Shown: one piece after another, positions 49,462-55,789 of the stretch
How positions within the stretch are numbered: the first letter of the stretch is position 1
How the letters are laid out: each line of letters begins with the position of its first letter
Source: Gordonia sp. X0973
Lineage (GTDB): Bacteria; Actinomycetota; Actinomycetes; Mycobacteriales; Mycobacteriaceae
Length of the DNA stretch: 64,000 bases
Assembly: GCF_013348785.1 (NCBI RefSeq)
Contig: NZ_CP054691.1
Location: 2,108,001-2,172,000 of the forward strand
Direction of reading: 5' to 3'
Made by a program: the position numbers and the translations under genes
The notes under the pieces: model-generated
Told to the model about the DNA's origin: nothing
Seen by the model: the letters and a program-made list of their open reading frames with translations, nothing else
The model's database searches: none

Positions 49462-51017
49462 CGCCACCCGTCCCGGGGCCGTGTCGTCCGCGTCGGATCG
49501 GATTGCGCCCGCGCGCCGCCGCGAGCCGAATGACTCCGGCGTCCGGGAGCGCGTTCGGTCCGCGGGATCGCCCCGGTCTCGGTGCGCCGCGGGCGCGGCG
49601 AGGTGGACCGGCCGCCCGAGGCGATCGGCCGTGCGTCGCGCGCCTGCGGTCGGCGGCGCGCCACCGGCTCGGACCGGCGCGGCCGCTTGGCCAGCCGTTC
49701 GCGCAGCTGGTCGGTGCGCGAGGGCCGGTAGGCGACCGGCGCGGGCAGTCGCGACAGGCGGGCGCGCCAACCGAGCGGTTTGACGTCGCCGAGCGCGGCG
49801 ACCGATTCCGGTTCGTGCCGGGCGGCATTCGCCATCAGCCCCAACATCGCCAGGACGGTGAGGGTCGACGTCCCGCCCGCGGACACCAACGGCAGCTGGA
49901 TACCGGTCACCGGCAGCAGCCCGACGACGTAGCCGATGTTGATGATCGCCTGCGCCGTGATCAACACGGTGATCGTCGACGTCATGAGCTTGAGGAAGGG
50001 ATCCTCCGAGCGCAGCGCGATGCGGATCCCGATGAGCATGAGCCCGACGAAGAGGCTGATCACGACCAGCGCGCCGAGGAGGCCGAGTTCTTCGCCGACG
50101 ATCGCGAAGATGAAGTCGTTGTGCGCGTTCGGCAGATAGTTCCACTTCGCCCGGCTCTGTCCGAGGCCGACCCCGAAGACACCGCCGTTGGCCAGCGCGT
50201 AGAGGGCCTGTCTCGCCTGGTAGCCGGCGCCCTGCGGGTCGTGGATGGCCCCGATGAAGCTGCGGACGCGCTCGGACCGGTATCCCTCGACGAGCGCCAG
50301 ACCGACGGCGAACACGACGACGGTCGCGCCGAAAGCCAGGAAGACCCGCACGGGCAGGCCGGCGAACCACAGCAGGGCGCCGACGATGATGGCGATGGTG
50401 ATCGTCGTCGAGAGGTTCGGCTCCAGCAGGATCAGCAGACAGATGAGGACGGCCACCGGCAGGAGCGGGACGAGCAGCTCGCCCATCGTCGCGTTGTCGC
50501 GGCGCCGCGACGCGAGCAGGTGGGCGCCCCACACGCACAGCGCCACCTTCACCAGCTCGGAGGGCTGCACCGACAGGCCGTAGATGACGAACCAGCGACG
50601 GGCGCCCTGGCTGAGCGTGCCGACACCGGGGATCAGGACCAGTGCGCACAGCAGGGTCGTCAGCACGATCATCGGCCCGGCCATGCGCCGCAGCAGCCGC
50701 ACCGGCAATCGGACGGTCCCGTAGAACACCACCAGCCCGAGGATCGCGAAGATCACCTGCGTCGTGAACAGGCTGTAGGCCGACCCCTCCTTGGAGTAGC
50801 CCTCCACCGACGAGGCGGACAGCACCATGACCAGGCCCAGGATGGTGAGGACGATGGCCATGCCGACGATGAGGTGGAAGGACGCGGTCGGCCGGGCGAG
50901 CAGATTGCGGACGGCCTCGGCGATGACCCGCGGCCACGCCAGCAACGACTCGCCGCCCGTGTCCGCCTTCCCGGCGGAGGGCTTGGCGGTGTCGGCCTGT
51001 TCGGCGGCGGCGGTCAC
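49458..51017 (-). CDS. ftsW: Septal peptidoglycan polymerase FtsW
   Basis: SEDS-family glycosyltransferase, 519 residues, that works with FtsI. Ten membrane helices occupy about residues 45-405; the signature [17 protein letters not shown], then [19 protein letters not shown], is intact, as are [11 protein letters not shown] and [18 protein letters not shown] basic cytoplasmic tail of about 115 residues, rich in Arg, Pro and Ser, follows; mycobacterial FtsW has such a tail that binds FtsZ. GTG 51017 overlaps the murD stop. Confidence 0.95.
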
Positions 51018-52555
51018 GACGTCGCTCCGGCAAGCGCGGCTGCGGCCGCGGCGAAGGCGTCCCCGCGCGCCGCGTAACTTCCGAACATGTCCAACGATGC
51101 CGCCGCGGGTGCCAGCAGCACGGCGTCGGCCCGGCCGTCGGCGCGCGCCAACTCCCACGCCGATCCGACGGCGGCCCGCATCACGGCGTCGGCGGCGGCC
51201 CGGTCGCCGGCGCCGGTATCGGGCGAACCCAGCGGTGAATCAGTCCCTGGAACGTGCTTGGCAACACTCACCCGCCCATCGTCCCCTGTGAATACTGTGA
51301 CTGCTGGGACTTCTGGGGCGTGTCGCGCAATCGCCCGCACAAACTCGTCGCGGTCGCGGCCGATCGCGACGACCCCGGCCAGCCGTTCCCGCGCCCCCCG
51401 GATCAATTCGTCCACCGACGCCCCCTTGAGCAGTCCGCCCGCGACGAGGACCACGCGGTCGCGGGCGGCGATCGCGGCGGCCGCGGCATGCGGATTGGTC
51501 GCCTTCGAATCGTCGATGAAGTCGACGGCGACCCCGTCGGCGCGGTCACGAGAGGCGACGCGCTCCCCCCGGTGCTTCGCCGGCGCGAACCCGGCCAGCC
51601 CCTGCGCCACGGCCGCGGCGGGCACCCCGATCGCGAGCGCCAGCGCCGCCGCGGCCAGCGCGTCGGCCCGACCGGACGGGCCGGGCGGATGGATGAGTCC
51701 GGCGGCGACCAGCTCGCGCGGCTCTCCGGCCGGTTCGCCGAATGCCCGGTCGACGAGCATCTCGCCGACGACGCCCAGTTCCCCCGCCGCCGGCTCGCCC
51801 AGCGTGAAGGCGACCCGGCGAGACGTCGGGCCGACCGGCAGCGCCGAGGCGATCTCGTCGTCGCCCCCGACCACCGCCACCGCGCCCAGCAGCGCGCCCG
51901 CCTTGGCGTCGCGATACCCCGCCATGCCGCCGTGCCAGTCCAGGTGGTCCTCGGCGATGTTGAGCACCACCCCCGCGGCCGGGCGCAGCGACGGCGCCCA
52001 GTGCAGCTGGAAGGAGGACGCCTCGACGCACAGCACCTCCACCCGCGGCGAGGCCGTCAACACGTCGAGCACCGGGGTGCCGAAGTTGCCGCAGGCCGCG
52101 ACGGTGCGCCCGGAGGCGGCGACGATCTCCTCGAGCATCGCGGTGGTCGTGGTCTTGCCGTTGGTCCCGGTCACCACCAGCCAGGTGCGCGGCGGACCGG
52201 TCACCGCGTTCTGGTCGACCCACCAGGCCAACTCGACCTCACCCCAGACCGGGACGCCCGCGGCATGCGCGGCGGCCACGAGGGGGTGATCGGGCGGGAA
52301 GCCGGGCGAGACGACCAGCAGGCGGGCGCGGCGCCACAGCTCCGCGTCGCCCAGCGCCTCGTCGACCCCGATGCGGGTCACGCCGTCGACGGTCTCCGGT
52401 GCGCCGAATGCGCCGTCGATCGCGGTGACCCGGGACTGTGCCGCGGTCAGAAAGGTGGTCGCCGACCGACCGGCGCTGCCGAACCCGGCGACGAGCACGT
52501 CGGCGCCGCCCAACCCGGCGACGAGTTCGGCGGCGGCACGAGTCTGGCGGTCCAC
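51014..52555 (-). CDS. murD: UDP-N-acetylmuramoylalanine--D-glutamate ligase
   Basis: Adds D-glutamate to the peptidoglycan precursor. The 513-residue protein has the UDP-binding [14 protein letters not shown]-loop [35 protein letters not shown] and the late [21 protein letters not shown] stretch of about 40 residues near 425-470 ([15 protein letters not shown] and following) is an insertion also seen in some actinobacteria. GTG 52555 follows the mraY stop by one base. Confidence 0.95.
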
Positions 52556-52556
52556 C

Positions 52557-53687
52557 TCAGTTCTTGTACTCGCTGTAGAACAGCGACAGCCCCAGGCCGA
52601 TCGACAGTGCCGTCAGCAGCCAGAAGCGGATGATGACCGTCGTCTCGGCCCACCCGCCCAACTCGAAGTGGTGGTGGAAGGGCGCCATCCGGAACAGGCG
52701 GCGTCCCGAGGTGCGGAAGACGAGGATCTGCAGCACCACCGAGACCATCTCGGCGACGAAGAGCGCTCCCAGGACCACGGCGATCAGCTCGGTGTGGCTG
52801 ACGATGGAGATCCCGGCGAGCAGGCCGCCCAACGCCAAGGATCCGGTGTCACCCATGAAGATCTTCGCCGGCGCGGCATTCCACCAGAGGAATCCAAGGC
52901 AGGCCGCACCCCCGGCGGTGGCGAGGATGGCCAGGTCGAGCGGGTCGCGAACCTGATAGCAGCCCTGCGCGAGCTGTTTGCCCGCCGCCCCGCCCTGACA
53001 GGCGTTGCGGTACTGCCAATACGTGATGAGGACGTAGGAACCCATGACCATCGCCATGGTTCCGGCGGCCAGGCCGTCGAGCCCGTCGGTGAAGTTCACG
53101 GCGTTCGACCAGGCCGCGACGACGAACCACACGAAGACGACGAAGACGACACCGCCGAGCCCGGCCAGCGAGATCGCCGAGATGTCGCGGGCGTACGAGA
53201 GGTGCTCACTGGCCGGTGTGTAGCCGAACCCGTTGCGGAAGCGCAGCACGAGGATGCCGAAGAGGATGGCGGCGGCGGCCTGGCCGACCGACTTGGCGGT
53301 TTTGTTGAGTCCGAGGTTGCGGTGCTTGCGGACCTTGATGATGTCGTCGAGGAAGCCGACGAAGGCCAGCAGCACCGTCAGCCCGAGGACGAGCATTCCC
53401 GACGCGGTGGGTCCCGGCCCCGGACCGCCGGGCTTCTCCGCCTTCGCGCCGAGGAGATAGGCGACGAGGTGCGCGGCGAAGTATCCGACGACGATGGCGG
53501 CGACGATGGCCACACCGCCCATCGACGGCGTACCGCGCTTGGTCTGATGGCTCTCGGGTCCCTCGACGCGGATCTCCTGGCCGAAGCCCTGCTTGGAGAA
53601 CTGCCTGATCAGGACCGGGGTCAACGCGATCGCCACGAACAGCGCCACCGCCCCGGCCACCAGAATCTGCGTCACGTCATGCGCCAC
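52557..53687 (-). CDS. mraY: Phospho-MurNAc-pentapeptide transferase
   Basis: Makes lipid I by moving phospho-MurNAc-pentapeptide to undecaprenyl phosphate. The 376-residue, ten-helix membrane enzyme has [37 protein letters not shown] and [12 protein letters not shown], covering the Mg and substrate residues. GTG 53687 has GGAG five bases upstream and lies 48 bp after the murF-position gene. Confidence 0.95.
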
Positions 53688-53735: not shown

Positions 53736-54227
53736 TCAAATCTGCCGGACCACCAGGTCCCAGTCCGCCAACGCGTCGAGCACCCGCCGGGGCCCGATCG
53801 CCCCCGCGATCGCCACCACGTCGCCGGCACCGGGGCGCTCGGCGCCGGGCTGATTCCACCGCGCCAGCAGTTCGTCGACGTCGGCGACCAGCATCGCCTC
53901 GTCGCCCCAGGAGCCCTCCATCACCGCCCCCTGCCAGGCGGCGCGCTCGGCGCGGGTCGGTCCGACGCAGACGACCTTGTCGATGGCCAGCCGTACCGCG
54001 GCCCGTCCCAGCAAATCGTGGTCGACGACGCTGCGCTGTTCGTCGGCGTCGCCGAGGGCGAGCCCGCCGACCAGGAACCAGGTGCGGGCCGCGGACTCCT
54101 CGTCGCGGTGGGCGGAACCTGCTCCCGCGTCGGCAGCGGCCTCGACGAGCCGCCGCAGCAGCACTTTGCCGTGGGCGACATCGGCCTCCGGGGCGCTCAG
54201 CACGACGACCGGCCGCTGCTCGCTCAC
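53736..54227 (-). CDS. MurF C-terminal-domain-like protein in the murF position
   Basis: A 163-residue protein located exactly where murF (about 500 residues) stands in related dcw clusters. It aligns by eye with the third domain of Mur[61 protein letters not shown] and [11 protein letters not shown]. The N-terminal UDP-binding domain and the ATP-binding domain with GTxGKT are wholly absent. The substrate motif DAYNANP is replaced by LSAPEADV, and KASNAxGL by AIAGAIGP. It therefore cannot ligate D-Ala-D-Ala. GTG 54227 overlaps the murE stop, the frame is clean, and base usage matches its neighbours, so it looks translated and retained rather than decaying. It may be a relic, a regulator or a scaffold; an active MurF must be encoded elsewhere. 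Confidence 0.8.
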
Positions 54228-55789
54228 GACCGGTCACCGCCGTCGACGATCGCCGTCAACGCCCGTCGCAGGACCACCCGGTCGTCGAACTCGTGCTTCA
54301 CGCCGTTGATCTCCTGGCCGGCCTCGTGGCCCTTGCCCGCGACGACGACGACGTCACCGGGGCGCGCCCACGCCACCGCCGCCGCGATGGCCTGCGCGCG
54401 ATCACCGATCTCGCGGATGTCGCGGGCGCGCCGTGTCGCGGCGTCGACGCCGTTCGCCCCCGCACTGACGGCGGCGCGGATGGCCGCCGGGTCCTCGGTG
54501 CGCGGGTTGTCGTCGGTGACGATCACCAGGTCGGCGCCGCGGGCCGCCGCGGCACCCATCTGCGCCCGCTTGCCGGTGTCACGGTCGCCGCCCGCTCCGA
54601 CGACGATGCCGACCCGGCCGCGGCAATCGGCGGCGAGCGTCGCCAACACCGCCTCGACCGCGGCGGGTTTGTGCGCGTAGTCGACCACGGCGAGGAAGTC
54701 CTGACCGGCCCGGACCGGTTCCAGGCGCCCGGGCACGACGACGTCGGCGATACCCGCGCAGGCCCGGTCGACGGCGGCGCCGGCCGCCACGCTCAGGGCG
54801 ACCGCCAGGGCCGCGTTCGTCACGTTGTAGCGCCCGGGCAGTGGAACCGGAAGGTCGTGCGCGGTGCCGTCGGGATCGATCAGCACCGGCGCCCCGTCGC
54901 CGACGACCGCCGTCCACCGGCCCGGTACACCGCTGCGATCGGCCGCGGCGTCCACCGTCTCGACCGTCGTCGGGTCGACGGCGATCTGCGCCATCCGGCG
55001 GCCCCACTCGTCGTCGACGCACACCACCGACGCGGCGGCCGCGGTCGGTGCCGCCGGGTCGAACAGGGCCGACTTGGCGGCGAAGTAGTCCTCCATCGTC
55101 GGATGGAAATCGAGGTGGTCCTGCGAGAGATTCGTGAACCCGCCCACCGCGAACGAGGTACCGGCCACCCGGCCGAGGGACAGCGCATGGCTGGAGACCT
55201 CCATGACCACGCTGTCGGCGCCGCGCTCGACCATCGCCGCCAGCAAGGCCTGCAGGTCGGGCGCCTCCGGCGTCGTGAGGGTCGCCGGGGCGGTCTCCCC
55301 GTTGATCCGCGTCGCCACGGTGCCGATGAGGCCCACCGAACGGCCCGCGGCCATCAGCGCGGACTCCACCATGAACGCGGTGGTCGTCTTGCCCGAGGTT
55401 CCGGTGATGCCGATGACGGTCAGGGCACGGCTCGGGTGGTGGTAGACCGCCGCACTGGCCGCGCCGAGCACCGCGCGCGGATCGTCGTGGACCAGCACCG
55501 GCGGTCGGCGGTCGGCGGCTATCGCCGCGTCGATGATCGCGGCACCGGCCGGGTCGGTGAGCACCGCCGCGGCGCCGCGCGACACCGCGTCGTCGGCGAA
55601 GGAGGCGCCGTGGACGCGGGCGCCGGGAAGTGCCGCGAACAGGTCTCCCGGTTCGACTCGCTGGGCCCGCAGCGTCACGCCGGTGACCGCACCGTCGTCA
55701 CCGCCGCGGACGCCCGCGCCGATCAGCTCGGCCAACTCCGCGATCGGTGTCGGCGCGACGTGTTCGGGCCGGGTGGAATCAGTCCCCAT
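54224..55789 (-). CDS. murE: UDP-MurNAc-tripeptide synthetase, meso-diaminopimelate type
   Basis: Adds meso-diaminopimelate as the third peptide residue. The 521-residue protein is complete: N-terminal UDP domain ([20 protein letters not shown]), P-loop [39 protein letters not shown], and DNPRTEDP, the motif that selects diaminopimelate. ATG 55789 lies 36 bp after ftsI. The stop overlaps the murF-like gene. Confidence 0.96.

Follow-up and report, generated by a model that had tools for sequence, protein, structure and literature searches.

We analyzed a 64,000-nucleotide stretch of the Gordonia sp. X0973 genome (hereafter the window; assembly GCF_013348785.1, contig NZ_CP054691.1, positions 2,108,001-2,172,000), in which a short gene stands between murE and mraY in the division and cell wall (dcw) cluster, at the place of murF. 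The genome is a single 3.75-Mb contig. The short gene encodes a protein that corresponds to the C-terminal domain (domain 3) of MurF; its start overlaps the stop of murE, and a gap of 48 bases separates it from mraY. The features at this locus are as follows.

53736..54227, minus strand: short gene for a stand-alone MurF domain-3 protein of 163 amino acids, with a GTG start and orthologues in 79 genomes

53898..54029, minus strand: the most constrained 44 residues of this protein (residues 67-110, beginning with [23 protein letters not shown] and ending with [12 protein letters not shown])

54224..54227, minus strand: GTGA overlap between the start of the short gene and the stop of murE

54224..55789, minus strand: murE, intact (NF001124, 589.7 bits, cut-off 476)

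52557..53687, minus strand: mraY, intact (TIGR00445, 263.6 bits, cut-off 192)

51014..52555, minus strand: murD, intact (TIGR01087, 345.3 bits, cut-off 212)

It is evident that the short protein has the fold of MurF domain 3 and none of the catalytic parts of the enzyme. Its predicted structure shows the Mur domain 3 fold described by the Mur ligase C-terminal domain family (PF02875), a label that some orthologues carry in their database entries; by sequence, the window's protein reaches 22.3 bits against PF02875, below the gathering threshold of 28.4. A Foldseek search with the predicted structure returned MurF at probabilities of 0.97-1.00, with unrelated aldolases among these rows and no E value below 0.001, and a sequence search of the PDB returned no MurF and two weak unrelated rows (E = 0.24). 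Against the MurF enzyme profile TIGR01143 the short protein scores 16.4 bits (cut-off 288.6), and the match covers only positions 324-405 of 418. Compared with the MurF structures 1GG4, 4QF5, 4CVM and 2AM1, it lacks domains 1 and 2, the P-loop and the YNANP and KAS/KGS motifs. None of the 79 short-form orthologues has YNANP or the ATP-binding P-loop, the short protein beginning past the end of the expected central domain, and the string V[KR][AG][ST] is found in a single one (L030). Among 94 catalytic MurFs (29 from the family, 23 others from the class and 42 of the second MurFs described below), conservation is 1.00 at the YNANP and lysine columns and 0.78-1.00 at the serine column, whereas the short proteins vary there. 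As these 94 were picked by YN[AS]NP, the contrast at YNANP is partly by construction; that at KAS/KGS is not. All 79 short genes are flanked by murE and mraY motifs, and a full MurF with YNANP and P-loop occupies the same place in all 29 loci fetched from catalytic relatives in 21 other genera. Judged by sequence, that is, by this shared locus and the shared core columns of the C-domain, the short gene is what remains of the native dcw MurF, namely its C-terminal domain. The original prediction had placed a MurF domain-3-like protein between murE and mraY, and both the locus and the predicted fold bear it out.

The short form was found in all 59 Gordonia genomes searched and in all 20 genomes fetched from the sister genera g7, g10, g12, g16 and g18. 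A family-wide search gave a match in 263 of 301 genomes. In a profile search restricted to proteins of about the same length, the named entries among the 120 of 1016 matches listed all belong to Gordonia or Williamsia, except one labelled Nocardia sp. 348MFTsu5.1. The short form of g10 is close to that of Williamsia muralis (99% protein identity). The event is older than the genus and is best placed in an ancestor shared by Gordonia, Williamsia, Jongsikchunia and two further genera. An artefact of assembly or sequencing, in which domains 1-2 would have been lost during assembly, has a negligible probability, given the same arrangement in 59 of 59 Gordonia and 20 of 20 sister-genus genomes and a window genome that is one contig with an intact MurF elsewhere; a gap in the assembly is ruled out by the 79 genomes that agree. 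Three records carry other titles. The locus L203 (NZ_JNYV01000005.1), titled Kitasatospora arboriphila NRRL B-24581, shows 100% protein identity to the g10 short form and may be mislabelled or contaminated, and L233 and L248, titled Acidobacteriaceae bacterium and Bifidobacterium breve, show 48% and 52% identity and may be misbinned.

Every genome tested that carries the short form also has a second MurF of catalytic type (71 of 71, out of 79; the 71 include one of the nine g10 genomes). Exactly one MurF that passes an E value of 1e-60, scoring over the curated cut-off, lies away from the locus in each of the 59 Gordonia genomes; in the window's genome it is found at 266851-268170 and has the P-loop, YNANP and KGS. 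The short gene is therefore not the split half of an active MurF, a candidate that we rejected because a domain 3 complete with YNANP and KGS is already present in the second MurF. In a set of 40 genomes from 31 genera, six genera (g1, g7, g10, g12, g16 and g18) have no MurF but the second type, and these are the same six that have the short form; 24 genera, 21 of them with the locus fetched, have the native type only, and a single incomplete genome (66%) yielded nothing.

The second MurF is of other descent than the family's own. Its best outside relatives belong to another class of the phylum, with up to 59% identity and 451 bits, versus at most 321 bits against the class sample. The tree joins the second MurFs with the other-class MurFs (branch values 100/100), and a clade of the second MurFs with the family's own is rejected by the approximately unbiased (AU) test (P = 5.5e-5, and P = 1.2e-4 with the order's other family added). 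The trees hold 10 or, with the other-class sequences included, 8 of 30 Gordonia MurFs, 20 or 16 of 29 family MurFs and, in the latter case, four of eight other-class loci. The other four other-class MurFs (L301, L302, L303 and L306) have YNAGP where other MurFs have YNANP and were left out of the tree, as the motif missed them; three of 26 class loci (L183, L198 and L202), which gave no motif match, were likewise left out of the trees and the column counts. In the class sample, 10 of 246 genomes (G434, G436, G445, G452, G507, G513, G522, G523, G537 and G546) have a pair of MurF matches that reach E 1e-60 and could be intermediates of a similar replacement.

A ddl motif lies within 1.5 kb of the second MurF in 27 of 30 Gordonia and 11 of 12 sister loci, and beside MurF in seven of eight other-class loci. 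The two genes stand head-to-head in the window's genome (G000 C1:265682-268170; L001, L101) and in the five other-class genomes examined. The Ddl of the window's genome shares 55-60% identity with other-class Ddl and 42-50% with that of the family. Of the 79 short-form genomes, ten were examined for Ddl; nine of them had a single Ddl, of this same type, and the native ddl was not found in nine of the ten. One g10 genome has a second, distant Ddl-like gene (L335, G067 C26:617213-618244) of 40% identity, which sits on a very long tree branch. Identity, a starred clade with other-class genes and a shared gene order all point to import of ddl; the AU test gives P = 0.038 in one grouping, the other grouping being already on the tree. 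The simplest reading of these sequence comparisons is import of a ddl-murF cassette that displaced the native genes, and it seems that the whole D-Ala-D-Ala branch was replaced.

The short gene is tied to murE in nearly all genomes. Among the 79 short genes, 58 overlap the murE stop by four bases and 18, all in Gordonia and including that of Gordonia crocea at locus L283, are fused in frame to murE; the remaining three overlap by 11, 1 and -6 bases. The 18 fusions carry only the tail and are thus not MurE-MurF bifunctional enzymes. On a tree of the second MurFs from 30 of the 59 Gordonia and 12 sister genomes, 13 fused genomes fall within one clade of 17 (branch values 96/94), together with four split genomes including that of the window. 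The fused and split states need four changes on this tree, three of them forced by starred branches. Fusion and splitting have therefore happened more than once, and both frames were left open. The 18 fused proteins and the window's protein have in common the motif A.D.G.GS.HR (window positions 54105-54131), which stands directly after the region that replaces DYNANP.

The tie to murE raises the possibility of a regulatory subunit, a domain that would bind a putative small ligand (a UDP-precursor, D-Ala-D-Ala or a nucleotide) and tune MurE, or, in a variant, would sense the supply from the D-Ala-D-Ala branch now provided by the ddl-murF cassette. We consider this reading unlikely, although not to be dismissed lightly. 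It fits with the 76 of 79 genomes in which the gene overlaps murE by four bases (58) or is fused to it (18), and with the invariant residues D71, R75, R79, R92, Q99, E104, S106, W107, E110 and D136, which look more like a site than like the core of a fold. Against it, both substrate motifs (DYNANP and KAS) are gone, and the constrained segment is also conserved in the catalytic relatives, so that it is not a newly arisen sensor.

Selection on the short protein is purifying and is strongest in the 44-residue core. The string QG[AT][VI][MQ]EGSWG.E occurs in all 79 short proteins. Among 46 aligned short proteins the invariant columns are D71, G74, R75, V78, R79, G89, R92, Q99, G100, E104, G105, S106, W107, G108, E110 and D136, most of which belong, in the predicted model, to two helices (63-79 and 92-103) or to loop 104-110. 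The second MurF has no letters in the alignment at residues 86-100, the segment leading into the EGSWG loop. The ratio of nonsynonymous to synonymous substitution rates (dN/dS, Nei-Gojobori) ranges from 0.035 to 0.315 in the 52 close pairs listed, which passed a shared-word filter within genus. When 19 pairs hand-chosen from these 52 are pooled, the core shows 16 nonsynonymous versus 206 synonymous differences (ratio of the two proportions, pN/pS, 0.028). Over all close pairs, the core pN/pS is 0.110 in the short form (302 pairs) versus 0.156 in catalytic dcw MurFs (586 pairs). Conservation in the columns of [12 protein letters not shown] is 0.77-1.00 in the short form and 0.38-1.00 in the 29 family MurFs, and mostly lower in the 23 class MurFs. 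The core is thus constrained in the catalytic relatives and still constrained in the short form; the constraint has not been relaxed, and we make no claim that it has risen. An increase in core conservation after the loss of catalysis was rejected, as the whole-core constraint is similar (0.110 versus 0.156) and the mean identity lower. Codon-level constraint also rules out an overlap artefact of high G+C DNA.

These results bear on whether the gene is a passive relic or spacer that survives only by keeping the translation of murE and mraY coupled, or because its deletion would disturb the operon. The gene does overlap murE and sit in an essential operon, and its ends vary in length and sequence (the split short genes encode 148-215 amino acids). 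Yet the amino-acid sequence is constrained (dN/dS and core counts as above), genome searches found no internal stop among the listed matches of the clade, the tree shows switching between the fused and the split form while both frames stayed open, and there is no overlap with mraY, which lies 48 bases away in the window. A passive relic is accordingly quite improbable. The original prediction had left a pseudoenzyme and a relic as alternatives, and of these a maintained pseudoenzyme is favored and the passive relic disfavored. It had also anticipated a catalytic-type MurF elsewhere in the genome, which is present, and had proposed comparing the short form among relatives and computing dN/dS; the form is conserved across the genus and beyond, and dN/dS is well below 1. 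Our analysis goes further in three respects, namely the imported-looking catalytic MurF linked to ddl, an event older than the genus, and the fusion of the tail to MurE in 18 of 59 Gordonia genomes.

MurF domain 3 has been retained here without catalysis. The native ddl vanished whereas the tail was kept, a single segment is constrained, and the gene overlaps or is fused to murE; the retained domain therefore appears to do a job that needs neither ATP nor substrate. Docking is the simplest such role, and we propose, with belief and doubt evenly balanced, that the tail, coupled to MurE, serves as a docking module and not as a catalyst. A head-to-head ddl-murF pair would have taken over D-Ala-D-Ala synthesis and MurF catalysis in the common ancestor; the native ddl would have been lost, and the native murF would have shed the two domains that bind UDP and ATP, together with its substrate motifs. 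Domain 3 would have stayed in place, made in step with MurE through translational coupling or fusion. The binding face would consist of the helix EHD..GR.AVRL together with the loop [12 protein letters not shown], both of which the family's catalytic MurFs already conserve, and the candidate partners are wall-building proteins of the cytoplasm or membrane (MraY, MurG, FtsW, Wag31 or the second MurF). Docking could keep the hand-over of the MurE product at the right place despite a catalytic MurF of other descent that itself lacks the segment leading into the loop. More generally, MurF domain 3 in Mycobacteriales may have a second function separable from catalysis, so that it was kept alone or on MurE when a foreign MurF took over and the UDP/ATP domains and the native ddl were discarded; we hold this to be as probable as its opposite.

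Published contacts of MurF are consistent with a docking role. In the available excerpts of a fragment-complementation study (PMC3605390, a figure of which is corrected in PMC10965061), M. tuberculosis MurF contacts FtsW, FtsQ, FtsZ, Wag31, SepF, PknA, PknB, DdlA and NamH. For other bacteria, excerpted sources report that MurF contacts MreB and that Mur enzymes contact MraY and MurG (PMC4929429), and that the Bordetella MurE-MurF fusion binds MurG (PMC6420597; PMC4929429). The M. tuberculosis contacts could also mean that the domain is a kinase or divisome target, a handle by which the native MurF was recruited or phosphorylated (PknA/PknB, Wag31, FtsW). The contacts with PknA, PknB, Wag31, FtsW, FtsQ, FtsZ and SepF agree with such a handle, as does the statement that MurF alone among the Mur ligases contacts DdlA and NamH (PMC3605390). 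However, the excerpts assign the contacts to no particular MurF domain, and they describe kinase and division contacts for all Mur ligases, not specially for MurF; moreover, in the alignment of short proteins no Thr is invariant, and S106 is the one invariant Ser. We regard this explanation as doubtful, slightly more so than the regulatory one.

Several points weigh against docking after an import. As far as the excerpts go, one study saw no interaction among the Mur ligases (PMC3605390), and in another MurD, MurE and MurF showed no mutual binding without MreB or MurG (PMC4929429); both reports therefore speak against a direct link to MurE or to the second MurF. The model of the fused MurE-tail protein (predicted template modelling score 0.72, without an inter-domain error estimate) offers no usable interface, and the invariant D71, R75, R79, R92, E104 and E110 could equally be a ligand site. 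Constraint outside the core is modest (pN/pS 0.284 in the 19 chosen pairs), and mean core identity is 0.704 in the short form versus 0.782 in catalytic MurFs, whose motif-selected sample is biased to conserved motifs (the catalytic locus L240, miscounted as short, is left out of the 76). As to descent, the same AU test with same-class sequences only is not significant (P = 0.077 and 0.139), and an ancient second MurF copy may have been lost in other lineages instead of being imported into this one.

The excerpts of PMC4929429 and PMC6420597 treat it as an open question if the Mur enzymes of the cytoplasm work together as a complex, and which surfaces would join them. If MurF domain 3 does have a separable second function, Gordonia and Williamsia would represent a natural separation-of-function experiment, which exposes a non-catalytic role of MurF in assembly of the wall complex that is hidden within the full-length enzyme of their relatives. 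Evolution would have removed the enzyme and kept one surface, and the 44-residue segment can be named for testing; a non-catalytic MurF role becomes testable in a lineage where loss of the gene should not block the MurF reaction. MurF domain 3, MurE-MurF fusions, non-catalytic relatives of enzymes and gene replacement by a foreign homologue are all already known. Within one library of open-licence papers, we found no description of a MurF domain 3 that persists by itself once a foreign homologue has replaced the enzyme, and the short protein is mentioned neither in the available excerpts of PMC6420597, PMC6736417, PMC4929429 and PMC3605390 nor in PMC10965061. Most named entries listed for the short protein give it the name UDP-N-acetylmuramoyl-tripeptide--D-alanyl-D-alanine ligase, although it has neither the ATP nor the UDP domain. 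Models or drug-target lists that equate MurF with the dcw gene of Gordonia or Williamsia would be wrong, and the databases call for correction.

Three known systems invite comparison. MurT of the MurT/GatD pair keeps its ATP domain and catalysis. The neighbors of the short gene are murE and mraY and not GatD (a comparison of the neighborhood only; GatD was not searched for elsewhere in the genome), and the match is far weaker than that to MurF. The plastid-encoded RNA polymerase complex has a Mur-ligase-like subunit related to MurE; this is a different complex, and the subunit is not a lone C-domain. The MurE-MurF bifunctional fusions of Bordetella pertussis and other species resemble the Gordonia fusions in having MurE and a MurF-derived part in one chain, and in the Bordetella fusion, as the excerpts of PMC6420597 describe it, both enzymes are complete and active. 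The Gordonia fusions (18 of 79 genomes), unlike that of Bordetella, carry only an inert tail, and catalysis must sit in the unlinked second MurF.
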